Positions 13,649 through 38,117 of a DNA stretch of 64,000 bases are shown in pieces. The notes beneath the pieces are model-generated. The model saw only the letters and a program-made list of their open reading frames with translations. It made no database searches and was not told the origin of the DNA. Made by a program: the position numbers and the translations under genes. Positions within the stretch are counted from its first letter, which is position 1, and each line of letters starts with the position of its first letter. Origin of the DNA: Paraburkholderia phenazinium. GTDB taxonomy: Bacteria > Pseudomonadota > Gammaproteobacteria > Burkholderiales > Burkholderiaceae. The stretch is from contig NZ_FSRM01000001.1 of NCBI RefSeq assembly GCF_900141745.1, positions 2,976,001-3,040,000 of the forward strand, given 5' to 3'.

Positions 13649-13690
13649 CACGAGCCACTCCGCCGCGCCGGCTGGAATGGGAAAATCGGG

Positions 13691-14580: not shown

Positions 14581-14615
14581 TGGTAAACCACTATCGCGCG
14601 CGGATTGGTATGCCA
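14581..14615. promoter_or_regulatory. Operator-like sites 2 and 3 in the ABC operon promoter region
   Basis: TGGTAAACCA (14581-14590) and TGGTATGCCA (14606-14615) repeat the TGGTNNNCCA pattern of the site at 14471, 25 bases apart start to start. They lie in the 405-base gene-free stretch 14420-14824 that separates the GntR gene from the ABC transporter, 210-245 bases before the first transporter gene. I see no other gene in that stretch. Confidence 0.55.
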
Positions 14616-14824
14616 GTACTGTCGAATAGGGAACGTAGGCGCATCCTTCGTTTTGCCTCGAGGAGACGTCTTTGAAGAGGTCATTCCGTTGATCGGCGAG
14701 TCCGATTCAGTCCCGCTGTAGCACGTCCGCAAGATTCCCTGCGATACGCACACCGTGTCGGTCATTCCCGACAAGCCATGTGCGCTGGCAATCGGTAAGT
14801 TCAATCCAACAGACAGGAGACAAC

Positions 14825-15952
14825 ATGCTTTCAGGAATCCAGGTGCTTCGAGCGGCGGCGACCGCGACATTGGCGCTGTGCGCAAGCACGGCTTTCGCGC
14901 AGGCATCGATCGTTCCCGGGCCGCCCAGCGATCCCACATGCATGGTCCCATGGAAGAGCGACACGAAGTTCGTCAAATATCCGAAGAAGAGCGGGCCCTA
15001 CCGGATCGCGCTGGTGAACGGCTATATCGCGAACACCTGGCGTATCCAGATGATCAAGACGGCCAAGGCCTACACGGCGCAACCGGCCGTCGCCGCCAGG
15101 CTCAAGGAATTCAAGGTCGTCTCGACCGGCGAAGACGTGCCGGCGCAAATCTCGGCCGTCAACAACTTCATCGATGCCGGCTATGACGCGATCATCGTCG
15201 ACGCGCAGAATCCCGCCTCGTTCGGACCCGCGATCCGTCGCGCGAAGAAGGCCGGTGTCGTGCTGATCGCGTTCGACAATACGCTCGACAGCGAGGACGC
15301 GATCAACGTCGACGTCGACCAGTATGGGCTCGGCGTGCTGTGGGCCAACTGGCTGGCCTCCCATGTGTCGAACGGAGGCAAGGTGCTCGAGATTCGCGGG
15401 GTGGCGGGCACATCGGTCGATACCGACCGGCACAATGGCTTCCAGAATACGTTGAACGCAACCGGCAAGAAGTGGAACGTTGTCCAGGTCTACGGCAAGT
15501 GGGACGACGGCGTCGCGCAGAAGGCCGTGGCCGACGCGATTGCCGTGCAGGGCCATTTCGATGGCATCTCCGCGCAAGGCGGCGACACCGGTGTCGTGCG
15601 CGCGATGCTCGACGCGAAACATCCTTTCGTGCCGTTCGGCGGCGAAACGGAGAACGGCTTTCGCAAGCTCTGTGCGCAGTATGGGAACCAGGGCCTGAAG
15701 TGCACGTCGGCGGGTAGCGGTCCCGCGCAGGTGGCCGTGGCGATCAAGACGGCGCTCGCTGCACTGGACGGCCAGACGATTCCGGTCGCGATCAAGCTGC
15801 CGCTCGACGTCACCGACGATTCGAAACTGAAAGCAGGTGTCAACTATTTCCCGGATGAGTCCGATAACTTCTTCGTCGGCAACTCGTTTCCGACTTGCGG
15901 CATCAATTTCTCGGCGCAGGAAATCATGAAGCAGAGCCAGGGCAACCAGTGA
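14825..15952 (+). CDS. Sugar-type ABC transporter, periplasmic substrate-binding protein
   Basis: The ATG at 14825 follows CAGGAGA and gives 375 residues with a signal peptide cleaved after TAFA near residue 25. The mature protein is a Peripla_BP_4 (RbsB-like) binding protein: YRIALVNGYIANTWRIQM, DAIIVDAQNPASF, VVLIAFDNTL, VAGTSVDTDRHNGF and GGDTGVVRAM. It is longer than RbsB (~296), with an extra N-terminal segment containing Cys. It captures a sugar or polyol in the periplasm for the ATPase and two permeases encoded next. The substrate is not predictable, and no catabolic enzyme is in the operon. Confidence 0.9.
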   Translation: MLSGIQVLRAAATATLALCASTAFAQASIVPGPPSDPTCMVPWKSDTKFVKYPKKSGPYRIALVNGYIANTWRIQMIKTAKAYTAQPAVAARLKEFKVVSTGEDVPAQISAVNNFIDAGYDAIIVDAQNPASFGPAIRRAKKAGVVLIAFDNTLDSEDAINVDVDQYGLGVLWANWLASHVSNGGKVLEIRGVAGTSVDTDRHNGFQNTLNATGKKWNVVQVYGKWDDGVAQKAVADAIAVQGHFDGISAQGGDTGVVRAMLDAKHPFVPFGGETENGFRKLCAQYGNQGLKCTSAGSGPAQVAVAIKTALAALDGQTIPVAIKLPLDVTDDSKLKAGVNYFPDESDNFFVGNSFPTCGINFSAQEIMKQSQGNQ

Positions 15953-24438: not shown

Positions 24439-25221
24439 TCAGGAGATGAAATGCTTCGACTCCAGAAATTCCCGCAACCGTCGCGAATCGGAGTGGAAGA
24501 CCTCCGGGTCGTATTTCAGTGGACTTGAGTACAACTGCGCCATCGACGTGATCCCATGCAGTTCGAGCTTCGACCGCGCGGCCGTGGTGGACATGTGCCG
24601 CGGCCAGGCGCGCTGCTCGCGTTCGGCATAGCTCGCATCGATTTCCTCGTCGCTCGGGTCGCGGTAAAACTCTTCGTGAACCAGCGCGGACATCGGCAAC
24701 CGGTCACGTTTGTCGGGATTTTCGTCCGGATACCCGGCGACAATCGTCGCCGCCGGCACGCAGGTATCCGGGAGATTCAGGGCCGCCGCGATGCCGCTCA
24801 TCGCGGATAGCGTCGAGCCCATGTAGCAGACACCCAGGCCGCGAGCCTCGAATCCCAGACAGACGTTCTGCGCCACGATCATCGCGTCGCATAGTGCAAT
24901 GTGATAGCCCATCAGATTGTTGAAATTGTCGCGTGCCGCACCTCGCGCGAGCCAGCGCCGCGTCCTGTAGCAGTCCGCAACAAAGGTCACCAGCAAGGGT
25001 GCCTGCAGGATCATCGGCTGTCGTGCATGCAGCTCGTATAACTGCTGTCTGCGCCGTGCATCCTGTGTCAAAACCAGCGAGACGTTGTTCAGATTCCCGG
25101 ACGACGAAGCCCCTGCCATTGCGTCGGCACATACCGCGTCGATCAGTTCACGCGCAATCGGGTCCTGCTTGTAACGCCGGATCGAGCGATGTCCGTTGAG
25201 GAGTCTGGAGAGGTCAGTCAT
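24439..25221 (-). CDS. Nitroreductase-family FMN oxidoreductase (NfsA-like), end of the biosynthetic operon
   Basis: The 260-residue protein has the NfsA-type FMN site (HRSIRRYKQDPI near residue 10; GLGVCYMGSTLSAMSGIAAALNLP around 125). Family members use NAD(P)H to reduce nitro groups, quinones or flavins, or act as tailoring oxidoreductases. It overlaps the aminotransferase gene by 8 bases, so it is the last gene of the operon that starts near 33688. In that setting it could supply reduced flavin to the halogenase-like enzyme or reduce/oxidise the product; both are inference. Confidence 0.85.
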   Translation of the reverse strand: MTDLSRLLNGHRSIRRYKQDPIARELIDAVCADAMAGASSSGNLNNVSLVLTQDARRRQQLYELHARQPMILQAPLLVTFVADCYRTRRWLARGAARDNFNNLMGYHIALCDAMIVAQNVCLGFEARGLGVCYMGSTLSAMSGIAAALNLPDTCVPAATIVAGYPDENPDKRDRLPMSALVHEEFYRDPSDEEIDASYAEREQRAWPRHMSTTAARSKLELHGITSMAQLYSSPLKYDPEVFHSDSRRLREFLESKHFIS

Positions 25222-26512
25222 GGCGTCCAGGCTCCGGTCGGCACAGCGTCGAAAAGCACCGGTCGAGGATGCGCAGCCCCGCTTCCAGCGTCCGCAGCTC
25301 GACCGTCAGCGGTGCCAGCATACGCAGGACGTTGCCGTGTGTCCCGCCCGCGAGCAACAGCAGTCCCTCATCGCGCGCCGACGTCACAAGCTTGCTGGTG
25401 AGGTCTTTTGCCGGCTGCCCGTCGGGCGTGCGCAACTCGACGCCGATCAGCGCCCCGAGTCCTCGCACGTCTGCAATCAACGGATAGCGTTGCTGCATCG
25501 CCAGCAGCGCCGTACGCGTGATCTCGCCAACCTGACGGGCGCGCCCCAGGATCTGCTCCCGCTTCATGACGTCGAGTACGGCCAGCGCGGCCGCACAGGC
25601 CAGCGGGTTACCGGCGTAGGTACCGCCCAGGCCACCGGGCCCCACGGCGTCCATCACACTGGCGTGGCCCGTCACGCCCGCGAGCGGTAATCCGCCGGCC
25701 ACCGATTTACCGAACACCAAAAGGTCCGGCGTCGCTCCCATCTGCTCAACCGCGAAAAAGGTACCCGTGCGGCCGGCACCGCTTTGCACCTCGTCGGCAA
25801 TGAGCACAATCCCTTCACGGTCGCACAACGCACGCAACTTCGCGACGAATCCAGGCTGGGCCACCTGTATTCCGCCCTCGCCCTGCACCGGTTCGAAGAT
25901 GATCGCGGCAATGTCTTCGGCGGCAGCGTCGTTTCTGAAGATGCGTTCAATGCTGCCAAGCGCCGCGTCGACGTCGATGTTGTTCAGCGCGTCCGGATAC
26001 AGCGCGCGGTAGACATGGCCTGGCATGAGGCCCATTCCTGACGCGTAGGGTGCCACCTTGCCGGTCATTGCCAGGGCCATTAGCGTGCGGCCATGATAGG
26101 CGCCGGTAAAGGCAATCACACCGCTGCGTCTCGTATGCGCGCGGGCGATCTTGATCGCGCTTTCAACGGCTTCGGAACCCGTGCTGAACAGGGCAGTCTT
26201 TTTAAGGCCATCGCCCGGCGCCAGCGCATTGATCCGCTCACATACCGCAACATAGGACTCGTACGGCAGCACAGCGAAACAGGTGTGAACGAAATGGCCC
26301 AATTGCCGCTGGACCGCTTCGACGACATCCGGGTGAAGATGCCCCGTATTCAGCACGGCAATGCCGCTCGTAAAATCGATGTACTCGTTACCGTCGATAT
26401 CCCAGATGCGGTCGTTTACCGCCCGCGCCGCAAAAATCGGATGTGCCTGGTTGACGCCGCGCGCAACCGCGGCCTGCCGGCGGCTGAGCAGCGTTTCGTT
26501 GGTGACGCTCAT
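25214..26512 (-). CDS. Class III PLP aminotransferase (GabT-like)
   Basis: The 432-residue protein matches 4-aminobutyrate-type aminotransferases: FTSGIAVLNTGHLHP, FSTGSEAVESAIKIAR, GAYHGRT, EPVQGEGG, PLP-ring Asp D240 in LIADEVQSGAGRTG, and the Schiff-base lysine K269 in LVFGKSVAGGLPLAG. It transfers amino groups between an omega-amino compound or amino acid and 2-oxoglutarate or an aldehyde. It overlaps the halogenase gene by ATGA upstream and the nitroreductase by 8 bases. In this operon it probably adds an amine to a carbonyl intermediate or supplies an amino-acid building block. Confidence 0.9.
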   Translation of the reverse strand: MSVTNETLLSRRQAAVARGVNQAHPIFAARAVNDRIWDIDGNEYIDFTSGIAVLNTGHLHPDVVEAVQRQLGHFVHTCFAVLPYESYVAVCERINALAPGDGLKKTALFSTGSEAVESAIKIARAHTRRSGVIAFTGAYHGRTLMALAMTGKVAPYASGMGLMPGHVYRALYPDALNNIDVDAALGSIERIFRNDAAAEDIAAIIFEPVQGEGGIQVAQPGFVAKLRALCDREGIVLIADEVQSGAGRTGTFFAVEQMGATPDLLVFGKSVAGGLPLAGVTGHASVMDAVGPGGLGGTYAGNPLACAAALAVLDVMKREQILGRARQVGEITRTALLAMQQRYPLIADVRGLGALIGVELRTPDGQPAKDLTSKLVTSARDEGLLLLAGGTHGNVLRMLAPLTVELRTLEAGLRILDRCFSTLCRPEPGRHD

Positions 26513-28215
26513 CGGCGCGCCCGGATTTCTGCGAGACGTTCGTCGGCACGCGCGGCAAGCGCTAACCGGTCGCCGTAGCGATAGCGGTCGAGGAACTCGA
26601 ACGGCCGCGCGTTCGGACCACGCGCGAGCTTCGCCGCGAGGCCGTCGGGTGCGTGGTTCGCCCAGTCCAGTAGCGACTTCGCAAATTCAGCCGTCGGTCG
26701 CGAGACGTAACGGTTGGCAAGGTCCGAGAAGTCGAGCGGCAGGTGCTCGCGGTTCTCCACATACAAACCGTGTAACGTGGCTATGGTTTGCGCTTCACCG
26801 GTCTCGCCGCGCTTGAAGCGTTCCATCGCCGAGCACGCGGCGTCGAACATCCGCTCGTAGCGGTGGCTTTCAATCGACAGGTGACCCGGATAGGTCGCGT
26901 TATCAAACGCCGCGTCCAATGCTTCGTTATCCCGATCAGCCAGATAGTCGGCAAGAATCCGGCGCAAACGCAGCACGCCGATATAGCTGCCGCTCAGCCA
27001 GAGGCGGAACCATGCATTCCATAGCGGAAACGTCCGGAACGCGGTGTACGAGTTGGCAACGAGGCGGTCGTTGATGCGTACGACTTCGAGGCTGTAGCGC
27101 TCGAGCGGCAACAGGTCTTCACGCTGCCAGCGGTCCGCCTGGAGCGATTTCAGCAGAGTCGGTGCCAGTCGCGCGATCGATTCGAATGTGTTGACCAGTC
27201 CTCGCGAGAACAGTGGATCGACGAATCCCACGGCATGTCCGAGCAGGCAATACCGGTCGCCGACCGTCTCGCGACTCGTGTAGTTCAGGCGCGGTGCAAC
27301 GGTCCATTCCCGAACGCGTGAGGCGTTTTTGAAGTGTTTTGCCACCGATGGATGGTCGGCCAGAAACTGCTGGAATTCGCGTTCCGGATCGCGGCTCGCG
27401 GGGCCGTGCCTGTCGATATCGAACTGCAGTCCGACGCTGCACAGCGGATTGGTGCTGAACGGCTGATTGTTGAACGGGATGATCCACAGCCAGCCGCAGT
27501 CGAACATGTGATGCAGCGTAGTCTGTGACAACGCAGTCGGCGAACCGTGTGTCTCGATCGGTGCGATCACATCCTCGTAAAGGTCGACGTTGACCATATG
27601 CGTGAACAGCGAGCGCGTGTTTGCCTGCATCGGCCGGGCGCCTTCGCGCAGTTGCAACGCGTCGGCGAGCGGCGCGCGGAAACCCGCGGCGTCGACTACG
27701 AAGCGTGTGTGCAGGCGCTGACCGTCGGCAAGTGTCAGCGTGACGCCCTCCCCTGCGACGTCAATGGACTGGATACGTGCCTGCTGCCTGATAACCGTGC
27801 CGAGACGGGCCGCAAGCGCGACATAGTACGCATCGATATCCTGACGAAACAGGTGGGCTTCCGGCGCGAGCACCGGGGTCGACACCACATCGGCTATATC
27901 GTGTTCCTTGCGAAAGCCGTTCCATGCGAAGCTGAAGGCCAGTTTGACACCCGCCGCCGAGGAGCCGATATGCCGGTTGATCTCGGCAATGTTGCCCGGA
28001 TAGGCCAGCTCGGGGATGCCAAAACGCTCCGCCATCAGTTCAAGCAGCACGGCGCTTTCCGGCACCATCGACTCGCCGACCGCGAAGCGCGGGTGCGTAC
28101 CCGCGTCCAGCACGACGACGTTCACGCCGTTTTTGGCGAGAATCGCGGCAAGCATCGAACCCGAAATGCCAGAACCGATGATGGCAACGTCATGATCGTA
28201 ATTCATAGTTTGCAT
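26509..28215 (-). CDS. Flavin-dependent halogenase-like monooxygenase
   Basis: The 568-residue protein has the FAD site GSGISG at 14-19, the halogenase motif W-x-W-x-I-P at 242-247 (GWLWIIPF), which separates halogenases from other FAD monooxygenases, FVDPLFSRG at 331-339, and a lysine (K91 in AGVKLAFSF) in the region of the catalytic Lys of PrnA/PltA-type enzymes. GESMVPES near 48 matches the halogenase GES(T)xPP region. It probably chlorinates or brominates an aromatic or enol group, perhaps on carrier-bound substrate. A related oxygenase without halogenation remains possible. Starts at 28215 or 28206. A gap of 55 bases with an AT palindrome precedes it. Confidence 0.82.
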   Translation of the reverse strand: MQTMNYDHDVAIIGSGISGSMLAAILAKNGVNVVVLDAGTHPRFAVGESMVPESAVLLELMAERFGIPELAYPGNIAEINRHIGSSAAGVKLAFSFAWNGFRKEHDIADVVSTPVLAPEAHLFRQDIDAYYVALAARLGTVIRQQARIQSIDVAGEGVTLTLADGQRLHTRFVVDAAGFRAPLADALQLREGARPMQANTRSLFTHMVNVDLYEDVIAPIETHGSPTALSQTTLHHMFDCGWLWIIPFNNQPFSTNPLCSVGLQFDIDRHGPASRDPEREFQQFLADHPSVAKHFKNASRVREWTVAPRLNYTSRETVGDRYCLLGHAVGFVDPLFSRGLVNTFESIARLAPTLLKSLQADRWQREDLLPLERYSLEVVRINDRLVANSYTAFRTFPLWNAWFRLWLSGSYIGVLRLRRILADYLADRDNEALDAAFDNATYPGHLSIESHRYERMFDAACSAMERFKRGETGEAQTIATLHGLYVENREHLPLDFSDLANRYVSRPTAEFAKSLLDWANHAPDGLAAKLARGPNARPFEFLDRYRYGDRLALAARADERLAEIRARR

Positions 28216-28216
28216 T

Positions 28217-28228
28217 CCTATATATAGG
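28217..28228. promoter_or_regulatory. 12-bp perfect palindrome CCTATATATAGG before the halogenase gene
   Basis: CCTATATATAGG sits immediately before the halogenase start, in the only sizeable gap (55 bases) inside the downstream half of the biosynthetic operon. It contains a TATATA that could act as a -10 element, and its AGGA overlaps the possible ribosome binding site. ACAT-N6-ATGT follows at 28232-28245. It may be an internal promoter or a control site; no -35 element is convincing. Confidence 0.35.
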
Positions 28229-28270
28229 CGTTACATCTGGTAATGTGGAGAGTGTGTTCGACCGCTCGCT

Positions 28271-28807
28271 TCAGCCGAGGTCAAGCCTTCTGATCAACGT
28301 GCCGGTCACCCGGATGTCCGCTGCCGCCTCGAAATCGGCCGCGACGAGGATCAGATAGCGTGCGCTGCCCTGCCCCAGCCATCGCGCGGCGAGCACGTCG
28401 ACTAGCGTCCGTGCGCTGGCGGCCGGCATCGTAAGGTTCATGGTGGGTCCGCGAAAGCCGAAGCGGGTGCAACAGATCGAAAGCGCGGCGCCAGCGTTCG
28501 CGTTGATGAATGCCGCGGGCGACACCCGGCCGTTGCGGCTCATATCGGCTATCACGCGCTGCGCAATGGCTTTCGGATAGGCGCTGCCGTAGTGGATCAT
28601 GCCGACGTGGTCCCTATGCGGCTCAAGCCGGGCACGGTTCGCGCGGTAGAGCGCTGCGACCGAGTCGAGCACGGGCCATACCGTCGGATCAGCGTTCCTG
28701 AGACCGTTCCCGATTTCAGGATCGAGTTGCTCGTAAGCCATGCTCCTACGTTCGCAGCTGTCGACGATGGCGTAACCGCGCGCCCACGCCAGGGTCTCGC
28801 CTGTCAT
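28271..28807 (-). CDS. Truncated, Cys-less ketosynthase-like partner protein
   Basis: The ATG at 28807 overlaps the ketosynthase stop (ATGA), giving 178 residues. The text SPAAFINANAGAALSICCTRFGFRGPTMNLTMPAASARTLVDVLAARWL (residues ~96-144) aligns with the N-terminal half of beta-ketoacyl synthases. The position of the active Cys (about residue 129, after GPTMNLT) is Ala, and the whole C-terminal half with the catalytic histidines is missing. It could be a chain-length-factor-like or scaffold partner of the full ketosynthase. Coupled translation supports a complex. Similar short KS-domain proteins occur in aryl polyene-type loci. Confidence 0.75.
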   Translation of the reverse strand: MTGETLAWARGYAIVDSCERRSMAYEQLDPEIGNGLRNADPTVWPVLDSVAALYRANRARLEPHRDHVGMIHYGSAYPKAIAQRVIADMSRNGRVSPAAFINANAGAALSICCTRFGFRGPTMNLTMPAASARTLVDVLAARWLGQGSARYLILVAADFEAAADIRVTGTLIRRLDLG

Positions 28808-29916
28808 GCCACTGCCCCCTGAAAAACCAGACTGGTGTTGAAGCCGCCAAAGCCGATCGTAAGACTGAGTCCATAGGCCGTGCTGATCGACCCAGGACGG
28901 CCCATCGGCATGGGCAGCGAGAAACCCGCGATGGGTTCTTCCAGTCCGTGTATGGGAGGTATCACCTGTTGCTGCAGGGCGAGAATCAACGCGATCGCCT
29001 CGATCGCGCCAGTTGCCCCGAGCGAATGGCCAAACGCTCCCTTCGTCGCAAAGATCGCGGGCCGCGAGTGGCCAAACAGCGCGAGATATGCGGCGCTCTC
29101 GATCCGGTCGTTGGTCAGGGTTCCTGAGCCATGCGCATTCAACACGCCAATATCCTCGTAGCGCAGCCCGGCGTTTTTCAGCGACCGCTCGATGGCGAGC
29201 CTGATGCCGTTGCCGTCTTTGTCGGGCGCGGTCAAACCCGCTGCATCGTTGGATGAGCCTGCGCCGCGCAGGATCGCGAGCGGCCGCACCGGACGATCGC
29301 CGCGCCGTTCGAGGACCAGAAAGCCAACGCCCTCGCCGAGAATCGTGCCGTCGTGACGGTGATCGAAGCTGCGCAACGTGGTCGACGACATGGTGCCCAA
29401 CGCAGAATGCGCGAGGCGCTTGGAGTCTCCCAGCACGTCTGCGCCACCGCAAATGCAGCGGTCGGCAAGTCCAGCGCGGATCAGCTCGGCGCCAAGCAGA
29501 AGAGCATCCGATCCGGAGGAGCAGGCAGTGGACAACGCAACCGCTTCGAGTCCGAATCCGTCGGCGATCTCCTGCACCCAGCGCTCGAGCGGTTCAGCGG
29601 CGGCAAGCGGGTCGTCAAGCCGCGCGCCGAAGCTCGTCCCTACAATCAACCATGTGCGCGCCGCCTGACGCGGTAGATCCAGTTGCGCATGCTCCGCCGC
29701 GGCAGCAACGGTTTGCCGGGTGAGGTGCTCGAGGGTGTCGCGTGCGTCGGCGCGGTCTGCCAGCGGAATCTTCGCCACCCGGTCGTTCTTCAGTTCATGC
29801 GGCGAGGGGGACGGCTCAATCCCAGTCTCGCCGTCGAGCAGCCGCTGCCACACGCCTGATAGCGTGCGGCCCAACGCGGTGTGCCAGGCCATACCTGTGA
29901 TCGCGAGTTCGCTCAT
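28804..29916 (-). CDS. Beta-ketoacyl-ACP synthase (FabF-like)
   Basis: The 370-residue protein has the full condensing-enzyme triad: C132 in STACSSGSDAL, H262 in NAHGSGTLTND and H297 in TKGAFGHSLGATG with K292. It is somewhat shorter than FabF (~410). It would extend an acyl chain with malonyl-ACP by decarboxylative Claisen condensation. It overlaps the transglutaminase-like gene upstream and the Cys-less partner downstream by ATGA. A dedicated carrier protein and ligase are encoded in the same operon, so it serves secondary rather than housekeeping fatty-acid metabolism. Confidence 0.9.
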   Translation of the reverse strand: MSELAITGMAWHTALGRTLSGVWQRLLDGETGIEPSPSPHELKNDRVAKIPLADRADARDTLEHLTRQTVAAAAEHAQLDLPRQAARTWLIVGTSFGARLDDPLAAAEPLERWVQEIADGFGLEAVALSTACSSGSDALLLGAELIRAGLADRCICGGADVLGDSKRLAHSALGTMSSTTLRSFDHRHDGTILGEGVGFLVLERRGDRPVRPLAILRGAGSSNDAAGLTAPDKDGNGIRLAIERSLKNAGLRYEDIGVLNAHGSGTLTNDRIESAAYLALFGHSRPAIFATKGAFGHSLGATGAIEAIALILALQQQVIPPIHGLEEPIAGFSLPMPMGRPGSISTAYGLSLTIGFGGFNTSLVFQGAVA

Positions 29917-30689
29917 GGCGCATCTCCTTGCGCCGGCATGCAGGCAAGGCTCGCGTCATTACGCGGCACGTGTTCTGTGCGCCTCGCCTGACCGTAGATG
30001 CGTAGATACTCGTCAGGCTTGTCGCTGTCGATGGGGTTCGGGTAGAAACTGTCGTTTATTGCCTCCCCCATCAGCGAAATCGTCCGCGCGAAGGGTTCGC
30101 TTTGCAGCCAGTTATCGCTAACCAGAAAGCGCGGTTCCACGTCCGCTTTATCGAAGCCAGGAAGTTGATCAGGGCGCACGAATTTGCGGCGCGACTTGTC
30201 AAAGACCTGCCGGTACGCGGAGGAATCGAAGTAGCGAATCCGTCCGCCAGTCACCAGCGCATTCAAGGAGTGCCACGGTTGCGGCAGATACAGGTAATTG
30301 ACGTAGATCTTGCGGATCGCATAGACCGGTTGCGCGAGCAATGCGCTGACGAGCGTGCCCGCCACATCGCTCATCTCGGTGCAGAAACACGGCAGGCGCG
30401 GACGGTCCGGTTCGATAAATGCGCTCAGATAGTCACCGAGGGAGAGCGACGGAATCACCTCGTCCCGATAGCGCGCGTAGACCGCTTCATGCGCGGGCCA
30501 TTCCACGCGAGGATAGGTCAGGCGTACAAGATTGGCCGGCCAGGTTTTGAAAACCTCCGGCTCCTGGGTGATATGGCACATGTGTAGGGGAATAATCTGC
30601 AGCACGTCCTCGATGGCTTTCAACTCGTACCTCGCGATGATTGCGCGAGTCAGCTCGTCAATGTCCCGATTCACGGTACACATCCTCAT
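29913..30689 (-). CDS. Transglutaminase-like cysteine protein of the biosynthetic operon
   Basis: The 258-residue protein has no family that I recognise by name. It contains a C-H-D arrangement with transglutaminase-core spacing: C103 (FCTEMSDVAGTLVSALL), H140 (PWHSLNAL) and D155 (RIRYFDSSAY), 37 and 15 residues apart. The short beta strands before H140 (IRKIYVNYLYL) also fit the fold. Bacterial TGase-like proteins include proteases and amide-forming enzymes such as AdmF of andrimid biosynthesis, which joins acyl groups on carrier proteins. It overlaps both neighbours by ATGA. Likely soluble; no signal peptide. Confidence 0.68.
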   Translation of the reverse strand: MRMCTVNRDIDELTRAIIARYELKAIEDVLQIIPLHMCHITQEPEVFKTWPANLVRLTYPRVEWPAHEAVYARYRDEVIPSLSLGDYLSAFIEPDRPRLPCFCTEMSDVAGTLVSALLAQPVYAIRKIYVNYLYLPQPWHSLNALVTGGRIRYFDSSAYRQVFDKSRRKFVRPDQLPGFDKADVEPRFLVSDNWLQSEPFARTISLMGEAINDSFYPNPIDSDKPDEYLRIYGQARRTEHVPRNDASLACMPAQGDAP

Positions 30690-32092
30690 TTGTAAAATTC
30701 GTACTGCTGCCGGTTCACCGGTGTCAGCGTCAGGCTGCTTGGGCGTTCGATATGCTTTAACCCCTTCATGATCTCCGCCTTCATCGCGTCGGCCTCGGCC
30801 GGCCCGACCAGCAGATCGTCCACCGTGATCTCAAGAAAATATCCGTCGACGGTATCGGCACGCCGGATCGATCGCGTCTTGCAGGTCAACACGCCTGGCA
30901 GCGCACGGCAGAACTGCTTGATCGCAGCCAGGTTCACTTTCTCGTCGTTCAGCACGATGAAGTCCGATTTCCGGTGCTTGAAGAAGAGATGACCGTCCTC
31001 GTCGATTTCGAAAATGTCGCCGGTTTTCAGCCACGTCTGTCCATCCATTTCGACCAGCGGACTCAGGGCGTTGCGGCCAATCTTCCGCTTCAGAAGCGTG
31101 TCCGAATGGACGAGAAGTTCGCCCTCCTGCGCCGGTCCGTCCACGTCGAGCAGGCGCACGAGGGTGCCGGGCATCGGACGGCCGACGGAAGCGAACCGCT
31201 TTGCGTTCGCCTCGTGAGCGCGCCCGGTCGAGACGCGCGGCCCCGCTTCGGTGACGCCGTAGGTCAGGTAAAGTTCTTTGCCCGGATAACGCTGGACGAA
31301 GGCCGCCGCCTGCTCGGGTGCAAGGAAGTCGCCCCCCACTGTGAGCGCGCGGACGGTCTCCGGCAGCGCGGCAGCGGAATGCGCGAGCAAGGTCCGCATC
31401 AGGACCGGCGTTACGGAACTAACCGTGACCCGATGGCGCGCCAGATCCGTGACGTACTGCGAACCGATGAACGGCGGCCCGCTGATAACCAGCCTCGCGC
31501 CACACTCGATGCTCGCGATTGCCTGGGCAACCAGCGCGAACGAGTAATAGAGCGGCAGGTTGATCAGCATCGTGTCCGTCGCACCCAGGTTGATCTCAGC
31601 CGCATGTTTGTGTGCATTGGCCCTGAGCGAGTCGAAGGAGTGCACACAACCGCTGCTGAAGTGCGAGGAGGTGCCCGAGGTGGTCAGGATCACTTCGCCC
31701 GGCTCGGTGACCGGTTTCGCAAGCGTGCGGAAGAAGCCGACTTCCCAACCCGCCTGCCGGTTGACCGCTTCAATGTGCAGTTCCTTGCACAACTCCTCAC
31801 CCAGCCGCGGCCTGACGACAGCAACGGCGCCAAAGTCTTCCGCCATCTGACGCAGACGCAGAACGGGTGTGGCCGGCGGCAGCATCGCGGGCACATAGCC
31901 CGCTGCCACTAGCGCGAAGAAGAGCTTCAGCAGGTTGCGGCCGTTAGGCATGCAAATCAGCACCGCGGCCCCTTCCGGCAGAGCACGTGCCCGCAATCCG
32001 GCAATCAGCTGCCCGGGGGCCGCCGCATCGCTTTCCGGCAACGCGACGCTCGATGTTTCGGTAATCAGATGATCGAAGTCCGTTATATGCAT
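30686..32092 (-). CDS. AMP-forming acyl/aryl ligase of the biosynthetic operon
   Basis: The 468-residue protein belongs to the ANL superfamily: A3-like loop TTSGTSSHFSSG (residues 137-148), A5 YLTYGVTEAGPR and A7 LKTGDIFEIDEDGHLFFKHRKSDFIVLNDEKVN. It ends with ...QQYEFYK, so an A10-type lysine would be the final residue. The A3 loop lacks the usual lysine (SGTTGxPKG). It is short for an acyl-CoA synthetase, and the carrier protein gene is 38 bases upstream, so it probably activates an acid as the AMP ester and loads it onto that carrier. The substrate is unknown. Confidence 0.85.
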   Translation of the reverse strand: MHITDFDHLITETSSVALPESDAAAPGQLIAGLRARALPEGAAVLICMPNGRNLLKLFFALVAAGYVPAMLPPATPVLRLRQMAEDFGAVAVVRPRLGEELCKELHIEAVNRQAGWEVGFFRTLAKPVTEPGEVILTTSGTSSHFSSGCVHSFDSLRANAHKHAAEINLGATDTMLINLPLYYSFALVAQAIASIECGARLVISGPPFIGSQYVTDLARHRVTVSSVTPVLMRTLLAHSAAALPETVRALTVGGDFLAPEQAAAFVQRYPGKELYLTYGVTEAGPRVSTGRAHEANAKRFASVGRPMPGTLVRLLDVDGPAQEGELLVHSDTLLKRKIGRNALSPLVEMDGQTWLKTGDIFEIDEDGHLFFKHRKSDFIVLNDEKVNLAAIKQFCRALPGVLTCKTRSIRRADTVDGYFLEITVDDLLVGPAEADAMKAEIMKGLKHIERPSSLTLTPVNRQQYEFYK

Positions 32093-32130
32093 AGGTATCC
32101 AAATTGTTAAACCTGGAGTCTGGTTTGAGA

Positions 32131-32397
32131 CTAGAGCGCGCTCAGCTTCGTCAGAAGAAATCCGGACAGCACGTCACAGTTCAGGAAGTTGTCCGGCACG
32201 AAATCGTTCTCGTCGATCCTGATTCCGAACTCCTCCTCACACTGGTAGCGAAGTTCGATAAAGCCAACGGAGTCGATCCCGACTACGGACAGGAAGCCAT
32301 CGGTCAGGCCGATGCGATCCGGTGAAATATCCACGTCAAGGCGTGTTGCGACGATGTTGCGAAGACGCTCGACAATCTCTTGCCTGCTTACGTTCAT
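32131..32397 (-). CDS. Acyl carrier protein
   Basis: The 88-residue acidic protein has the phosphopantetheine site S43 in VVGIDSVGFIEL, within a four-helix PP-binding domain. It resembles a free-standing secondary-metabolism ACP (EEFGIRIDENDFVPDNFLNCDVLSGFL). It would carry the acyl group made by the adjacent ligase to the ketosynthase and tailoring enzymes. No phosphopantetheinyl transferase is encoded nearby, so the host enzyme would have to prime it. A gap of 46 bases separates it from the antiporter gene upstream. Confidence 0.92.
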   Translation of the reverse strand: MNVSRQEIVERLRNIVATRLDVDISPDRIGLTDGFLSVVGIDSVGFIELRYQCEEEFGIRIDENDFVPDNFLNCDVLSGFLLTKLSAL

Positions 32398-32443
32398 GGT
32401 TACCTTCAGGAAAGGAAGACTGGATTGAAGATCACGCAGCCGT

Positions 32444-33688
32444 CTAGAGTTGCGGATCCGCCAACGGTTGATTTCCCGCCCGCATGCGTCGGCGTACGAG
32501 GGGCGTCGTCATTGCAGTAGTGACGAGAGCAAACAGAACCAGCATCGTGTAGACCCTGGGCGGAAGAATCCCCAGTTGCAGTCCAATCGAGAGCACGATG
32601 AGTTCCATCAAGCCTCTCGCATTCATGAGCGAACCGATGAAAGCCGCGTCGCCCGGCGCGAGGCCGCAGATCCGCGCGGCAAGATAGGCGCCGCCGAACT
32701 TCCCGGCAAATCCTGCCCCCAGGAACACGCAGAGCCAGAACCAGGCGTTGCCCCCTTCGATCAGGGAGATCGATGTGTGCAGTCCCGCGTACGAGAAAAA
32801 GACCGGCATCAGAATGGTGCGAAGGAAGCCGCCGAACCATCTGTCCCATTGTTCCCGCACGGCTGGGACGTCGCGCAGGAGCATCCCGGGAAGCAGCGCG
32901 CCGAAGGCGCTGTGAAAGCCCAGACTGGCAGTGATGCCGGCCGATACCATGACAAAGCACGTGACGATGGTGAACACGGCCTGCATATCGTTGCGTTGCG
33001 CCGCCCGTATCAACATGGGTTGAACCGCGTAACGCGTGATGACCACGCACCCGATCGAGTACAGCGCAATGCCACCGAGGGCAAGCGTCAGCTCGCCCAC
33101 GCCGTTGTGCACATGTGCTATTGACGCAACCACGGCCAGCAGCATCCAGCCCGCCACATCGGTCAGCATGGCGGCCGAGAGCGCAGTCTTCGCCAGCGGA
33201 TTCGCATTGAGCCCGAGATCGACAACGATACGCACCATCACCGGCACCGCGGACACCCCCAGCGCAACGCCGCAAAACAGCACATACGGAACGGTCGGAA
33301 AGCCTGGCGCCAGGACGTCCTTCGACCAGAGCGCTACTGCCACGCCGAGAACAAACGGCATCACGAGTCCCATGGCCGCGATCAGTCCGGGCAGGCGCAA
33401 TCCGGCACCCAACCGGGCCGCGCCGCGCCGCTCCGGAGCGTGAAGGTGCATGCCGATCTCGAACATGAGCAGGACAATGCCCACTTCGCCTAGCTGAGAC
33501 ATGCTCGATGCCGAACTCACCGGGAAGATGAGGTCGTGGATACCCGGGTCGAGCGCCCCGAGGACAGAAGGTCCCAGTAGAAGCCCCGCCGTGATTTCGC
33601 CAACCACCCGGCATTGACCGACGCGCTCAGCCAGATAGCCGCACGCATGACACGCCAGGATGATGATTGCGAGCTGGAGAAAGTACAT
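32444..33688 (-). CDS. CPA2-type cation/proton antiporter (Kef/NapA-like)
   Basis: The ATG at 33688 gives 414 residues with about eleven to twelve helices and the CPA2 start (YLAERVGQCRVVGEITAGLLLGPSVLG). SAAMLTDVAGWMLLAVVA contains an Asp in the ion-binding helix. GSLMNARGLMELIVLSIGLQLGILPP is the conserved late helix. The cytosolic RCK/TrkA domain of KefB/C is absent. It exchanges Na+ or K+ for H+. As the first gene of the biosynthetic operon it may protect against an ionophore-like or acidic product, or move the product; this is inference. The 122 bases to the luxR stop probably hold the operon promoter. Confidence 0.9.
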   Translation of the reverse strand: MYFLQLAIIILACHACGYLAERVGQCRVVGEITAGLLLGPSVLGALDPGIHDLIFPVSSASSMSQLGEVGIVLLMFEIGMHLHAPERRGAARLGAGLRLPGLIAAMGLVMPFVLGVAVALWSKDVLAPGFPTVPYVLFCGVALGVSAVPVMVRIVVDLGLNANPLAKTALSAAMLTDVAGWMLLAVVASIAHVHNGVGELTLALGGIALYSIGCVVITRYAVQPMLIRAAQRNDMQAVFTIVTCFVMVSAGITASLGFHSAFGALLPGMLLRDVPAVREQWDRWFGGFLRTILMPVFFSYAGLHTSISLIEGGNAWFWLCVFLGAGFAGKFGGAYLAARICGLAPGDAAFIGSLMNARGLMELIVLSIGLQLGILPPRVYTMLVLFALVTTAMTTPLVRRRMRAGNQPLADPQL

Positions 33689-33810
33689 TGCGATCTGGTG
33701 TCGGAGACGAGTGAAGCCCGAGGCAGAAAGTAGCGCGAACGCACGTAGCCCGGCAGCTCCAGGAAATGGGAGGGGTGCAGCGCAATGCCGCGCGATCCGG
33801 CGCTCCGCGC

Positions 33811-34527
33811 CTAGCCGATGAGCCCGAGAACAGCGGCTCTTACGGCCGCGTGCGTCTTGCTGACCGCACCCAGCTTGCGCGTGGCATTGGTGATATGAAA
33901 AATGCAGGTGGACTCCGCGATGCCCAGAATCGCTCCGATTTCCGACGCGGTTTTTCCTTCGGCAGTCCAACCCATGACCTCGCGCTCGCGGGACGAAAGG
34001 TGTGGCATGCCTTCCGTGAACATGGCCGGCAACAACCTTGCGCCGAGGCTTGCGTGGACGAAGTGCGCAAGCCAGATCATCGGACACTCCGTAACGGCCA
34101 GTTCATCCGGGTAAATCGGATGGGTGTCCCGCGCCAGCGTGAACCACGTGATGGCGCCGAACTGACTGCGCAGCGACATCGACCATCCGTAGCGGATACC
34201 GTGCGCCTTGGCCTCGTCCCAGTATTGCCGCTCGGACGAAGGCGCTTCAGCCGTCCATATCAGCGGAACCGACGACACCTTGCAATGGCGCAATATCGGA
34301 TCTATCTCGACGTAGCCAGGCGTGCGGTATCGCGATTGCCACGACGGCGGATAGTTACCGCGGACCTCGATGGCCGGGCGCGACACGGAGACCGGCAAGC
34401 GAACCCCGAACATCCAGAAGTCGAAACTGAGCGCCTTGGCGCTATCGGTAATTTCTCTGTCCAGCTCTTCGTCGGAAATATCGTGGCCGGCGACACGTTG
34501 TAGCTGTTCCTCGTACCACTTACGCAT
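33811..34527 (-). CDS. LuxR-family regulator with AHL-binding domain (solo, no luxI in window)
   Basis: The ATG at 34527 follows an AGAGGA site and gives 238 residues. The N-terminal autoinducer domain keeps the TraR ligand residues W57/Y61/D70/P71/W85 with a constant offset of six: W63, Y67, D76, P77 and W91 (PSWQSRYRTPGYVEIDP, LIWTA). The C-terminal LuxR helix-turn-helix is at ~176-230 (LSSREREVMGWTAEGKTASEIGAILGIAESTCIFHI). It is expected to bind an acyl-homoserine lactone and control the operon starting 122 bases downstream on the same strand. No synthase gene is present within the window. A start at 34548 is possible. Confidence 0.9.
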   Translation of the reverse strand: MRKWYEEQLQRVAGHDISDEELDREITDSAKALSFDFWMFGVRLPVSVSRPAIEVRGNYPPSWQSRYRTPGYVEIDPILRHCKVSSVPLIWTAEAPSSERQYWDEAKAHGIRYGWSMSLRSQFGAITWFTLARDTHPIYPDELAVTECPMIWLAHFVHASLGARLLPAMFTEGMPHLSSREREVMGWTAEGKTASEIGAILGIAESTCIFHITNATRKLGAVSKTHAAVRAAVLGLIG

Positions 34528-34534
34528 GGGAATC

Positions 34535-34561
34535 CTCTCCGAAAACATGAAATCCGGAGAG
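34535..34561 (-). promoter_or_regulatory. Hairpin covering the luxR ribosome binding site
   Basis: Read on the minus strand, CTCTCCG (34561-34555) pairs perfectly with CGGAGAG (34541-34535) across a 13-base A/U-rich loop. The second arm contains most of the GGAGAGGA ribosome binding site of the luxR gene at 34527, so the hairpin would hide it. This could limit luxR translation, for example by temperature or a trans-acting RNA. Confidence 0.45.
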
Positions 34562-35010
34562 AGCGCGGCAACCGGGGCGGGTCGGGCTTACAGAGGGAGA
34601 AGGCGCAGTAAAACGATGAAACGCTTTTGCGCAAGAAATGCCTGTTCAGCGCGCATGCAAATAGTTAGTCAGGTCAGCATCGATAGCCGAACCCATTCCT
34701 ATGCCTTGAATTGAGCGTGATTAGCCATGCGCAGATCAGGAGGATGCCGACTTCAGCCCTGGAGATTCCCTTTCCTCACTTACGCAAGGCTGGAAATCCG
34801 GCATGGCTTCGCCCCATTGCCGGGCCTCCACACAAACACAAACCCGGCGAGCGGAGCAACGCAAGTCGTGACACACCCTTCCCCGTCATTGGCCTGATTT
34901 ACCTGCTTATGAAATCATTGGAGGGCGGCTTTGACGCCCAGCGAGTCAGAGCGTAGCGCGGCCACGTCATTTGTGCTTCGGATTCGCCCGTGCCACGCCG
35001 CTGCAGCGTG
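34562..35010. other. Gene-free stretch upstream of luxR
   Basis: About 450 bases between the luxR gene and the convergent end of the MFS gene hold no convincing gene. An 81-codon open frame at 34711-34956 has no ribosome binding site and no protein-like composition. Short inverted repeats are present (CCGGCA/TGCCGG at 34798-34823), but none is followed by a T-run. It probably contains the luxR promoter; no lux box is evident. Confidence 0.5.
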
Positions 35011-36234
35011 CTATTCGAGCGCCGGTTCACCGCGTCGCCGTCCACCGAGATGATGAGCACAGGTGATCACGAAACCCAGCGCTGACATTGCGATGCCTAC
35101 CGTGCACACCAGGTCCCATCCGTAACGGGCGAACAGCAACGGCCCGAGCACGGAGCCCAGCGCGCCAGCGGCGTAATAGAAAAACATGTACACGCTATAG
35201 ATGCGACTGCGCGCATTGACATCGATCGCCAGCAAGCGGGTCTGATTGGCCACCTGTGCAGAAAAGCAGCCGACATCGAAGAGCACCAGGCCGATTGCCG
35301 TTCCCGCTATGGATGAACGGGCGACGAGCAATATCGCCACGCCCGCGAGCACCGACGCGAAACCGCACGCTATGACCGGCCGGTACCCGAACCGGTCCGC
35401 CGCACGCCCTGCCGCGCGGGTGGCAAACAATCCCAGCACGCCGGCAAAACTGAACATACCCGCCTGGCCGGCATTCAGATTGAGCGGCGCGCCGGCTACG
35501 GCCAATACGAGGGTGACCCACAGCATGCTGAAAACGAAAAACCAGCACGCTCCAACGATCACGCCTTCCTGCAATAGCCGATACCGGAATAGCACCGAGG
35601 GTAGCGACCTGAGCAAACCGAGGTAACCGTGCTCACTGCGCTGCACGTCTCTGGACAGCAGGCGATGCGTGAGGCAAGCGAGCAGAAACGATGCAACCCC
35701 GAACAGCATCAGCATCGTGCGCCAGCTTGTGGCCTGCGATAGCAGGCCACCCACAAACCGGCTCAGCAGGATGCCCGCGGATATCCCCATCCCCACCGTT
35801 CCCACCGCGCGACCACGCGACTCCGGCTTCGAGGCGCGAAACGCGACTGTGGCCAGGTGAACCGCGTTGGTTGCCATCGCACCGATCACGCAGCCCGCGA
35901 TGGTCAGCGCAGGCAATGTCGGCGCGTACCCCGCCGCGATCAACGCCATGGCCAGCACCGCGAATTGCCAGGAGACGATTCGCGCGGGAGAAACCTTGTC
36001 GCCAAGCGGAACCAGCAGGACGATACCCGCCATGTAGCCGGCCTGCATGCTGCCGGCGACGATGCCCATGGCCGTGAGCGGGAGGTGGAAACTCTCTGCG
36101 ACAGCGGGAAGAGCCGGCTGGAGCGCATAGTTATTCGCGATGGCCACGCCCGCGGCCATCGCGATGAAGGCGGTCAGCCACCGATGCGGCGTTTCCCGTC
36201 CGCCCCTGGCGCTCCCGCGCGGGACGCGATTCAT
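35011..36234 (-). CDS. MFS transporter, DHA1-type
   Basis: The 407-residue protein has twelve hydrophobic helices. MFS motifs: GVAIANNYALQPALPAVAESF in helix 1, VPLGDKVSPARIV (motif A-like), GMGISAGILLSRFVGG in helix 5 and AAGRAADRFGYRP in the central loop. It resembles proton-coupled small-molecule exporters. It starts 6 bases after the RidA stop, so the two genes form one operon, divergent from a TrmB-like regulator. The substrate is unknown. It may also be relevant to the nearby biosynthetic operon as an exporter, although it is in a separate transcription unit. Confidence 0.86.
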   Translation of the reverse strand: MNRVPRGSARGGRETPHRWLTAFIAMAAGVAIANNYALQPALPAVAESFHLPLTAMGIVAGSMQAGYMAGIVLLVPLGDKVSPARIVSWQFAVLAMALIAAGYAPTLPALTIAGCVIGAMATNAVHLATVAFRASKPESRGRAVGTVGMGISAGILLSRFVGGLLSQATSWRTMLMLFGVASFLLACLTHRLLSRDVQRSEHGYLGLLRSLPSVLFRYRLLQEGVIVGACWFFVFSMLWVTLVLAVAGAPLNLNAGQAGMFSFAGVLGLFATRAAGRAADRFGYRPVIACGFASVLAGVAILLVARSSIAGTAIGLVLFDVGCFSAQVANQTRLLAIDVNARSRIYSVYMFFYYAAGALGSVLGPLLFARYGWDLVCTVGIAMSALGFVITCAHHLGGRRRGEPALE

Positions 36235-36240
36235 GGCCGC

Positions 36241-36633
36241 TTACCAGGCCGAATCGCTTTTGACTGCCGTGATTTCGATCTCGACCAGAATCTTCGGATC
36301 GACGAAAGGCAGCACGTGCAGCAGCGTCAATGCTGGACGAACATCGCCGAACACTTCTCCATGAGCGCGGCCCGCGTCCTGCCAATGAGCAATGTCAGTG
36401 ACGTACACGCGGCTTTGCACGACGTCCTGGTACCCAAAGCCGGCATCGGTCAACACGGTGCCGAGCTTGTCGAGAATGGTTTTGGTCTGCGTATACAGAT
36501 CGTCGCCGACGATTGAACCATCCGGTCCGCTCGCCGCCGTTGCCGACACGTACAGCGTGTTGTCTGACTGGATGGCGCGGGAATATCCGATGGACGCTTC
36601 CCAGCTCGAACCCGACGAATACCGTTTTTTCAT
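36241..36633 (-). CDS. RidA-family enamine/imine deaminase
   Basis: The ATG at 36633 has AAGGAG at good spacing and gives 130 residues. YjgF/RidA hallmarks: YSRAIQSDNTLYVSATAASGPDGSIV, QTKTILDKLGTVLTDAGFGYQDVVQSRVYVTD and the C-terminal RPALTLLHV...LVEIEITAV with the conserved Arg and Glu. Such proteins hydrolyse reactive imines/enamines or act in specific catabolic pathways. It is followed after 6 bases by an MFS gene and preceded by a shared palindromic operator region with the TrmB-like regulator. Confidence 0.88.
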   Translation of the reverse strand: MKKRYSSGSSWEASIGYSRAIQSDNTLYVSATAASGPDGSIVGDDLYTQTKTILDKLGTVLTDAGFGYQDVVQSRVYVTDIAHWQDAGRAHGEVFGDVRPALTLLHVLPFVDPKILVEIEITAVKSDSAW

Positions 36634-36668
36634 GCTGCGCTCCTTGTATTGCACCTCGAGTAAATGGC

Positions 36669-36688
36669 TACACTACCTCGGTAGTGTA
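36669..36688. promoter_or_regulatory. Perfect 9-2-9 palindromic operator between ridA and the TrmB-like regulator
   Basis: TACACTACC-TC-GGTAGTGTA is a perfect inverted repeat, centred 46 bases from the TrmB-like start and 46 from the ridA start, so it can control both. Its core CTAC-N4-GTAG recurs at 37846 and 37868 beyond the regulator gene. Confidence 0.7.
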
Positions 36689-36723
36689 CAAGGCCAATAT
36701 GACATGTGCTAGTCTCACGCGAT

Positions 36724-37638
36724 ATGACTACACAGATTCCCGCCGAGCTGATATCCGCGCTGATTCGCCTCGGCTTCTCACAATACGAAGCGCAAGCTTA
36801 TTGCGCCCTTCTGCAACGTTCGCCGATGAATGGCCACGAGGTCGGCAAGCTCTCCAGCGTGCCGCCGTCGAAAATCTACGAGACGCTTCAACGTCTGGAT
36901 ACCAAGGGTGCGGTTCTCATGCATCGGTCGGAACCGGTCCGGTATGCGGCGGTTCCGTATGCCGAGGTGCTGGCGCGACTGCGGGAGCGCTTCGAGGGCG
37001 ATATCGAACTTGTCAACGAGGGACTGTCGTCGCTACCTGCGGCGCGTGAGCTCGGACTTGTCTGGTCGCTGCGCGACAGAAACGCAATCATCAGAGCATT
37101 TCAGACCACGATAGACAGTGCGCGGCAAACCCTGTTCGCGGCGATCTGGGACGAGGAAATGGAACCGCTGCGCGATGCGATCGAGGCGGCCTCGGCGCGT
37201 GGCGTCGATGTTCATGTGGCGATCTATGGGACTGCAACGCTGAATGGCCCCCGGTTTTACGACCTGCGCGAATGCGGCGCAAGCGCCCGGGCCAGGCTCG
37301 AAGGCCGCCGGTTGGCCGTTGCCGTGGCGGATGAGCAGGACGCCATCACCGCGGAGTTCGGGCCGTCCGCCAATGAGGAAGCGGTACTCACTACTAATCA
37401 GGTCATCAGCCTCCTCGCCATTGAGTACGTCAAGGCCGACGTCATGGGCCGCATCCTGATTAACTCGATGGGCCCACGGGCCTTCGAGAAAGCCCTCAAC
37501 AGCGATTTGATGCAGGCGCTCCTGGCAGCCAGGACCGTTCAGTTACCCAAACAGAAAAACAAAACCGCCGCGCCTGCATCCACAGTCAGACGGAAAAGTC
37601 CGGCGCGAGCGTCGGGAAACCGGACCGACAAGACGTAG
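36724..37638 (+). CDS. TrmB-family transcriptional regulator
   Basis: From the ATG at 36724 the product has 304 residues (a GTG six codons upstream is possible). The N-terminal winged helix (LISALIRLGFSQYEAQAYCALLQRSPMNGHEVGKLSSVPPSKIYETLQRLDTKGAV) is TrmB type, and the following ~170 residues resemble the PLD-like TrmB effector region (TLFAAIWDEEMEPLRDAIEAASARGVDVHVAIYG). The C-terminal ~35 residues are lysine/arginine-rich and low complexity. TrmB regulators in archaea sense sugars; bacterial members are less known. It is divergent from ridA-MFS across a perfect palindrome. Confidence 0.85.
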   Translation: MTTQIPAELISALIRLGFSQYEAQAYCALLQRSPMNGHEVGKLSSVPPSKIYETLQRLDTKGAVLMHRSEPVRYAAVPYAEVLARLRERFEGDIELVNEGLSSLPAARELGLVWSLRDRNAIIRAFQTTIDSARQTLFAAIWDEEMEPLRDAIEAASARGVDVHVAIYGTATLNGPRFYDLRECGASARARLEGRRLAVAVADEQDAITAEFGPSANEEAVLTTNQVISLLAIEYVKADVMGRILINSMGPRAFEKALNSDLMQALLAARTVQLPKQKNKTAAPASTVRRKSPARASGNRTDKT

Positions 37639-37896: not shown

Positions 37897-37925
37897 CAAA
37901 AAAAACCGACCCATAAAGGGTCGGT
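37897..37925 (-). terminator. Intrinsic terminator, minus strand
   Basis: An 8-bp stem ACCGACCC/GGGTCGGT with a 5-base loop is followed on the minus strand by a run of eight T. No minus-strand protein gene ends here, so it probably ends the hairpin-rich RNA described at 37897-38117. Confidence 0.65.
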
Positions 37926-38117
37926 GGAAAGATTCTGGCCTATTTCGAGGGCCGGGCCAGAACCTGAGAGACTGGTAGTATGGCATTACACGGTGTCATT
38001 TGCGGGTAAATCTTCTATTTACCCGCCGCGAAGCGGCCGGGTTGTGACTGGACACAGTGAGTGTCTTGTCACAACCCGGCCGCTTCTCGTTTGCCTCGCT
38101 AATCCGGGCGTGCCCGG
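37897..38117 (-). ncRNA. Candidate small RNA: array of perfect hairpins ending in an intrinsic terminator
   Basis: The 623 bases between 37639 and 38261 hold no gene. Read on the minus strand, the region shows in order: hairpin CCGGGC/GCCCGG (38117-38104); a 19-bp perfect stem (38086-38068 with 38048-38030) whose loop holds a second 5-bp stem GACAC/GTGTC; a 10-bp perfect stem (38026-38002); an 8-bp stem TTCTGGCC/GGCCAGAA (37962-37933); and an 8-bp stem ACCGACCC/GGGTCGGT (37925-37905) followed by eight U (37905-37898), an intrinsic terminator. A -10-like TATGAT lies at 38129-38124. Expected length is about 220 nt. The alternative is a structured leader of the plus-strand GNAT gene. Confidence 0.5.

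Follow-up and report, generated by a model that had tools for sequence, protein, structure and literature searches.

Biosynthetic clusters built around the proteins AmcB, AmcF, AmcG and AmcH have been described in three types, the cispentacin, coronafacic acid (CFA) and minimal types (PMC10698177). In vitro these four proteins were reported to extend 2-oxoglutarate, once loaded, by a single malonyl unit and to close the chain into a 3-oxocyclopent-1-ene-1,2-dicarboxylate bound to the acyl carrier protein (ACP), and the CFA type contains the AmcE homologue cfa2 together with type I polyketide synthase (PKS) genes (PMC10698177). Minimal-type amcB/F/G/H clusters include that of FR900452 and a kind, typified by Paraburkholderia acidicola/Burkholderia ubonensis, that carries a prostaglandin-reductase-like gene (PMC10698177). 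Here we describe a related locus of Paraburkholderia phenazinium (genome of 8.3 Mb in two contigs), which was analyzed within a 64,000-nucleotide stretch of contig NZ_FSRM01000001.1 (positions 2,976,001 to 3,040,000, hereafter the window). An original prediction had placed at 24439..34527 an apparently undescribed, quorum-linked operon with a halogenase, a ketosynthase pair and a transglutaminase-like enzyme. The nine-gene minus-strand unit at this position is real, and judged from its genes the cluster is of the minimal type with other tailoring enzymes.

The core proteins were assigned with NCBIfam models at the NCBI cut-offs. The AMP-forming ligase (30686..32092; this and all other genes of the unit are on the minus strand) matched the 2-oxoglutaryl-ACP ligase family AmcH (NF058661, 476 bits, cut-off 370), and the ketosynthase (KS; 28804..29916) matched AmcF (NF058662, 479 bits, cut-off 325). 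The ACP (32131..32397) contains a GIDS motif, is found by PF00550 and is AmcB-like (NF058660, 74.9 bits, cut-off 80). The KS had been described as complete, and it does carry the Cys-His-His motifs ACSSG, HGSGT and KGAFGH. The short KS homologue (28271..28807) had been taken for a Cys-less fragment; it contains Cys at residues 18, 112 and 113, of which by eye none aligned with the KS nucleophile, and instead of being a remnant it matched AmcG, the cyclization factor (CYF) of AmcF-type KS enzymes (NF058659, 88.4 bits, cut-off 80), so that the pair is not a generic chain extender. Loading of an acid onto the ACP, also proposed earlier, agrees with the AmcH match but was an incomplete description, since the matches of the ligase to AmcH and of the KS pair to AmcF and AmcG make both the starter, 2-oxoglutarate, and the ring predictable.

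An amcB-H-like cluster in another genome (locus L113, G649:C1:817000-836500, at 8402-15523) served for comparison. Its AmcB, C, E, F and H scored above the model cut-offs, AmcG reached 72.5 (cut-off 80), and the place of AmcD is occupied by a YbgC/FadM-like thioesterase which scored under the cut-off of that thioesterase model and was used as the AmcD query by virtue of its position. The window proteins are 50% (AmcF), 39% (AmcH), 35% (AmcG) and 43% (AmcB, over 76 aa) identical to those of this cispentacin-type cluster. When the L113 proteins were used as queries against the 64-kb window alone, no AmcE or AmcD homologue was found at E 0.01, although the same AmcE query found an AmcE-like stretch in an Azospirillum locus (L046, 47% over 152 aa), and L113 AmcC aligned only weakly with the window aminotransferase (28% over 281 aa). 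It is because AmcE and AmcD were without a match and AmcC aligned weakly that we assign the window cluster to the minimal type. Used as a family marker, AmcG gave weak matches (E<=0.001) in 39 of the 398 genomes of the family and exceeded its cut-off in three.

The list of open reading frames (ORFs) and the gene junctions agree with the single tight unit, antiporter to nitroreductase, that had been predicted. The claimed overlaps were all found in the sequence, with -4 (ATGA) overlaps at the ligase/transglutaminase-like, transglutaminase-like/KS, KS/short KS homologue and halogenase/aminotransferase junctions and a -8 overlap at the aminotransferase/nitroreductase junction; the remaining gaps within the unit are 46, 38 and 55 bases. 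Its interpretation as one biosynthetic operon is supported and, as stated earlier, no modular PKS or nonribosomal peptide synthetase (NRPS) is encoded among the operon genes.

Five genomes, that of the window included, carry the cluster (the other loci being L041 in genome G437, L042 in G399, L043 in G219, and L077), and the order TrmB, Rid, MFS, LuxR, antiporter, ACP, ligase, transglutaminase-like, KS, CYF is identical in all five. The halogenase and aminotransferase genes come next in the window, L042, L043 and L077; the L041 contig stops earlier, and the G437 aminotransferase was located on a separate contig. The grouping is more than chance, since L042, L043 and L077 show the same succession of genes between Rid and aminotransferase, as does L041 up to the end of its contig. 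The boundary 24439..34527 was drawn too tightly, as the MFS, Rid-family and TrmB-type genes (35011-37638) accompany the block in every carrier. In a comparison with L042 the ratio of nonsynonymous to synonymous substitution rates (dN/dS, NG86) lay at 0.05-0.17 in 11 of the 12 genes, the exception being the short KS homologue with 0.25; this gene was left out of the L077 comparison, where its frame is open after an upstream stop. The halogenase was the most conserved of the large enzymes in both comparisons made.

The reading that we favor, with moderate confidence, is an AmcB/F/G/H pathway of the minimal type, equipped with tailoring enzymes of its own, the product of which is probably, as best read from the genes, an aminated, halogenated cyclopentene carboxylate. 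By analogy with the homologues, the AmcH-type ligase would load 2-oxoglutarate on the ACP, and the AmcF-AmcG type KS-CYF pair would add one malonyl unit and close the ring to give ACP-bound 3-oxocyclopent-1-ene-1,2-dicarboxylate. With the AmcE decarboxylase not found in the window, the free C1 carboxylate would be retained. The ring ketone would lie gamma to this carboxylate, as in succinic semialdehyde, a position which would for that reason suit a GabT-type enzyme that keeps the GabT substrate-binding residues, and the GabT-type aminotransferase would aminate it. The PltM-type halogenase would chlorinate or brominate the enol or enamine carbon beside the aminated position, a carbon which may be electron-rich enough for such an enzyme, with the nitroreductase, where present, as a possible flavin reductase. 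A protein with a Cys/His/Asp arrangement (C101/C103, H140, D155; 29913..30689), the putative release or amide-forming enzyme of the transglutaminase/N-acetyltransferase (TG/NAT) superfamily, would take the place of AmcD, either hydrolysing the product off the ACP or releasing it as an amide. A LuxR solo, possibly acting via a 19-bp element, would control the operon, and the MFS transporter and antiporter would export the product or balance ions.

Several points weigh against this pathway. The ACP scored under the AmcB cut-off, and the AmcG match lies 8 bits over its own. The substrates of PltM, as far as they are given in PMC6424973, are phenolics and not cyclopentenones. An AmcE-like or AmcD-like activity could be supplied from elsewhere in the genome, the search having covered the window, and FabI could reduce the ring as in cispentacin. 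The reading is based on the genes, which do not fix the order of amination, halogenation and release. The Cys/His/Asp protein received no Pfam support for a TG/NAT assignment, and identification as a transglutaminase by profile was rejected: an hhalign comparison of a 5-row alignment with 28 TG-core proteins (chosen by a C..HAW..D + R..GY pattern from 30 loci, two being dropped) gave Probab 0.13 and a score of 12.5 over 17 columns, below the best score, 21.9, of 30 column-shuffled controls.

What stands of the earlier label "transglutaminase-like" is the arrangement of C101/C103, H140 and D155, which is invariant in the five carrier sequences; Pfam and the profile comparison did not support it, nor did comparison with PDB sequences, and the structure models were poor. 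The best surviving alternative to the favored pathway concerns this protein, which may be an amide synthase (GdmF/AdmF-like) that joins the cyclopentene acid to an outside amine, giving a larger amide product. We regard this as a tentative possibility, well short of even. The first structure model, although of low confidence, shows a weak lean to transglutaminases, the amide synthase GdmF and arylamine N-acetyltransferases, the invariant residues are consistent with such a role, and AdmF is said to be an amide-forming transglutaminase homologue.

In the favored pathway amination is assigned to the class III aminotransferase (25214..26512), a GabT-type enzyme of a cluster-specific group. The GabT likeness claimed earlier was borne out by the match to E. 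coli GabT (EcGabT, 567 bits) and by TIGR00700 (521.3, cut-off 506.65), with NF005985 at 653.7, under its cut-off of 713; the GabT models were far ahead, and AmcC was outside the best 25 of 69 families. Residues I50, R141, E211, V241, K268 and R398 of EcGabT, which we take to be substrate-binding, are kept in the five cluster aminotransferases. At the position of Q79, presumably near the active site, all five cluster copies have Ala, whereas Gln was found in all five housekeeping-type copies read (three of eight loci, L069-L071, gave no ORF by the filter and were dropped). Matches at E<=1e-120 were obtained in 104 of 117 genus genomes. Four of these are cluster copies, with an identity to the window copy of 100% for the window, 94% for G437, 88% for G399 and 72% for G438, while the other matches, among those listed, were 50-53% identical, and these we take for housekeeping GabT. 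Such a 50-53% match is present in 103 of the 116 other genus genomes, unlike the window genome, in which no GabT of about 50% identity was found besides the operon copy.

An alternative is that this aminotransferase is a resistant copy of, or a stand-in for, housekeeping GabT as the product's target, and not a tailoring enzyme. The presence in G399, G437 and G438 of a second GabT-like copy (50-52% identity) beside the cluster copy, the change of Q79 to Ala common to all cluster copies and the low identity of other homologues in the window genome (at most 37%) would fit such a role. Against it, the gene overlaps that of the halogenase by ATGA and would explain an amine, and the window genome is without a housekeeping copy that would need protection. 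We consider this alternative unlikely, and prefer amination of the ring by the operon enzyme.

Slightly less likely still is a cispentacin-like route, in which the pathway would be finished by FabI together with a FabZ-like enzyme encoded elsewhere and the halogenase would act on cispentacin or its ketone. The Amc core is common to both pathways, and FabI works in trans in cispentacin biosynthesis (PMC10698177), but the aminotransferase is not AmcC, given the weak alignment to L113 AmcC and the lead of the GabT models, and AmcE and AmcD were not found in the window. Cispentacin itself and coronafacic acid were rejected as products, with AmcE, AmcD and AmcC not found in the window.

The flavin halogenase claimed in the original prediction (26509..28215) was confirmed as a homologue of PltM, with a match of 503 bits over residues 7-505, followed by a tetracycline 7-halogenase (379 bits). 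The motif set GxGxxG, catalytic Lys, WxWxIP and FxxPxxSxG, which we take to be that of PltM/CtcP-type flavin adenine dinucleotide (FAD)-dependent halogenases, is complete in the window protein (K91, WLWIIP, FVDPLFSRG). The least probable alternative makes the protein a flavin oxygenase or decarboxylase, with no halogenation taking place; it draws on the varied roles of Trp_halogenase-family proteins and on electron-poor cyclopentenones being unusual substrates for such enzymes, but Lys91, WxWxIP and FxxPxxSxG are kept in all four carriers read and both of the best solved relatives are halogenases. K91 sits in the sequence context of PltM K87, the replacement of which by Ala was reported to give an inactive enzyme (PMC6424973).

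Upstream of the unit lies a LuxR-type receptor/regulator gene (33811..34548, minus strand; PF03472 and PF00196), of which the nearest solved relative is QscR (171 bits); the first ATG gives the coordinates 33811-34548 and 34527 is the second in-frame ATG. Quorum sensing by an N-acyl homoserine lactone (AHL) of the strain's own is unsupported, as no LuxI (PF00765) was found in the window's genome, while the same search, as a positive control, recovered LuxI from all 18 other genomes of the genus to which it was applied, carrier G399 among them. One further AHL-receptor-type gene is present in the window's genome. The window and L042 keep the W...SRY segment of QscR, L043 and L077 have it altered, and DP and the tryptophan of PL.W are kept in all four; we take these three features to have a role in AHL binding. 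The loss of W...SRY in L043 and L077 suggests that within a single conserved cluster the ligand has changed or is a different one, and the term "quorum-linked" is weak in view of this loss and of the LuxI search without a hit.

The spacer between the LuxR and antiporter genes contains a 19-bp element, CCCCTCYCATTTCCTGGAG (33757..33775, minus strand), a candidate operon control element which is identical in the five carriers save for one C/T position, while the spacer around it has diverged. Allowing up to 3 mismatches, the element has one match in the window, with 0.02 expected. A lux-box palindrome was rejected, as no 20-bp dyad with at least 8 of 10 pairs occurs in the window's two spacers, and none of the five inverted-repeat pairs in 33600-35020 is at the 19-bp element. 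Promoter-like sites (3 versus 3.3 expected) and terminator-like sites (12 versus 10.9 expected) were close to expectation.

The first gene of the tight unit encodes a CPA2-type cation/proton antiporter (Na_H_Exchanger; 32444..33688, PF00999, 151.9 bits) and the last an NfsA/Frp-type nitroreductase or flavin reductase (24439..25221, PF00881), a putative accessory enzyme with 3eof, NfrA1, NfsA and Frp as relatives. The nitroreductase had been counted as part of the operon, which holds here and in L042, but it is not constant among carriers, being without a match in L043 and L077, that is, in two of the four carriers with the 3' end covered. Beyond the LuxR gene are those for an MFS transporter (35011..36234, minus strand; PF07690, 122 bits), by synteny a candidate exporter, a Rid-family protein (Ribonuc_L-PSP; 36241..36654, minus strand; PF01042, 78.2 bits) and, divergent from the latter, a TrmB-type regulator (36706..37638, plus strand; PF01978, 65.6 bits) which adjoins the block in all five carriers. 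At E<=1e-60 the Rid gene was found in four of 117 genus genomes, all of them carriers. Self-protection by the Rid protein against enamines was considered and is weakened by Leu in place of the conserved, catalytic Arg105 in the four carriers read, this Arg being required for imine hydrolysis by RidA (PMC4433059). Just past the TrmB-type gene, an Rfam match to ncS54 (Burkholderia sRNA 54; 60.7 bits) was observed at 37898-37974 on the minus strand.

The carrier scans were not exhaustive, G438 having surfaced via the Rid gene. The closest carrier in a named collection is a Paraburkholderia metagenome-assembled genome with proteins 90-99% identical. Of the 398 genomes of the family, two, one of them the window's, have the transglutaminase-like marker, which was also present at three loci among 39 pattern matches in the genome contig collection, a scan which reaches close relatives only; a profile search of 369 class genomes found it in the window's own alone. 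A plasmid origin was rejected, with one 38-base match in 72,556 plasmid records and no match in these records to the transglutaminase-like protein. The flanks of the window find a match in L041 and, in part, in L042 on the TrmB side, while they have no match in L077 and scattered pieces, on the opposite side from TrmB, in L043; in these distant carriers the block therefore lies in other surroundings.

The literature searches made, which covered open-access papers, gave no paper on this exact gene set, and a word search of the main text of PMC10698177 returned no mention of halogen, transglutaminase, nitroreductase or LuxR. As far as these searches reach, "apparently undescribed" stands for the gene set as a whole, no characterised cluster with it having been found, but not for the ring-making core. 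The cispentacin genes amcB-H (Hibi et al. 2023, PMC10698177) have the ACP, ligase, KS and CYF families and a class III aminotransferase in common with the window; in place of AmcC, AmcD and AmcE, which were not found there, the window has its GabT-type aminotransferase and the Cys/His/Asp protein, together with a halogenase of PltM type and a solo LuxR. The minimal-type clusters, as far as that paper presents them, share the same four core genes and nothing else. Another minimal-type cluster, L044 (G323:C2:1189600-1209500), resembles the prostaglandin-reductase type of Hibi et al. and is 37% (KS), 34% (ligase) and 26% (CYF) identical to the window; by eye it contains aldo/keto-reductase-, second-ligase- and P450-like ORFs, and it gave no transglutaminase-like, halogenase or GabT match. 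With respect to coronafacic acid (cfa1-cfa5), no AmcE/Cfa2 homologue and no type I PKS genes were found in the window, and the window KS and CYF are 47% and 29-30% identical to genes on nine Pseudomonas plasmid records (recorded as KS family protein and hypothetical protein) which we infer to be cfa3 and cfa4. Two of the loci compared had further neighbours. The L113 cluster, which has an ATP-grasp ligase-like neighbour and a local G+C content of 38%, seems an unusual one to find in a genome as small as 1.6 Mb. The AmcB/E/F/G/H-like cluster of L046 (Azospirillum sp. B510 plasmid pAB510a, about 3696-13070) is accompanied, by reading, by NRPS-like, PhyH-type, glyoxalase-like, thioesterase-like and nitroreductase-like ORFs.

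PltM, the phloroglucinol halogenase of the pyoluteorin cluster, is reported to make a halogenated phenolic regulator and not an intermediate (PMC6424973), whereas in the window the gene for the halogenase overlaps that for an aminotransferase within a predicted cyclopentanoid operon. The formation of the cyclopentanoid scaffold was explained only in 2023, and its halogenation and GabT-type amination would widen the range of KS-CYF chemistry. The predicted product could be tested in vitro with 2-oxoglutarate, malonyl-CoA, glutamate, halide and about seven proteins. Synthetic (3S,4S)-3-amino-4-fluorocyclopentenecarboxylic acid is described as a potent inactivator of γ-aminobutyric acid (GABA) aminotransferase by an enamine mechanism (PMC9921285). 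The predicted product would share with it the amino group, vicinal halogen and conjugated carboxylate on a cyclopentene, with Cl or Br in place of fluorine and perhaps a second carboxyl. In a bolder and doubtful proposal, the cispentacin decarboxylase would be omitted so that a GabT-type enzyme reads the intermediate as a cyclic succinic semialdehyde, and the natural product would be a 4-halo-3-aminocyclopent-1-ene carboxylate. As a halogenated GABA analogue locked in a ring, it would inactivate the pyridoxal phosphate-dependent aminotransferases of competitors (GabT or ornithine aminotransferase) by the enamine mechanism familiar from synthetic drug leads. If this were true, the halo-amino-cyclopentene motif, devised by chemists to target the aminotransferases of GABA and ornithine, would have been reached by bacteria as well.

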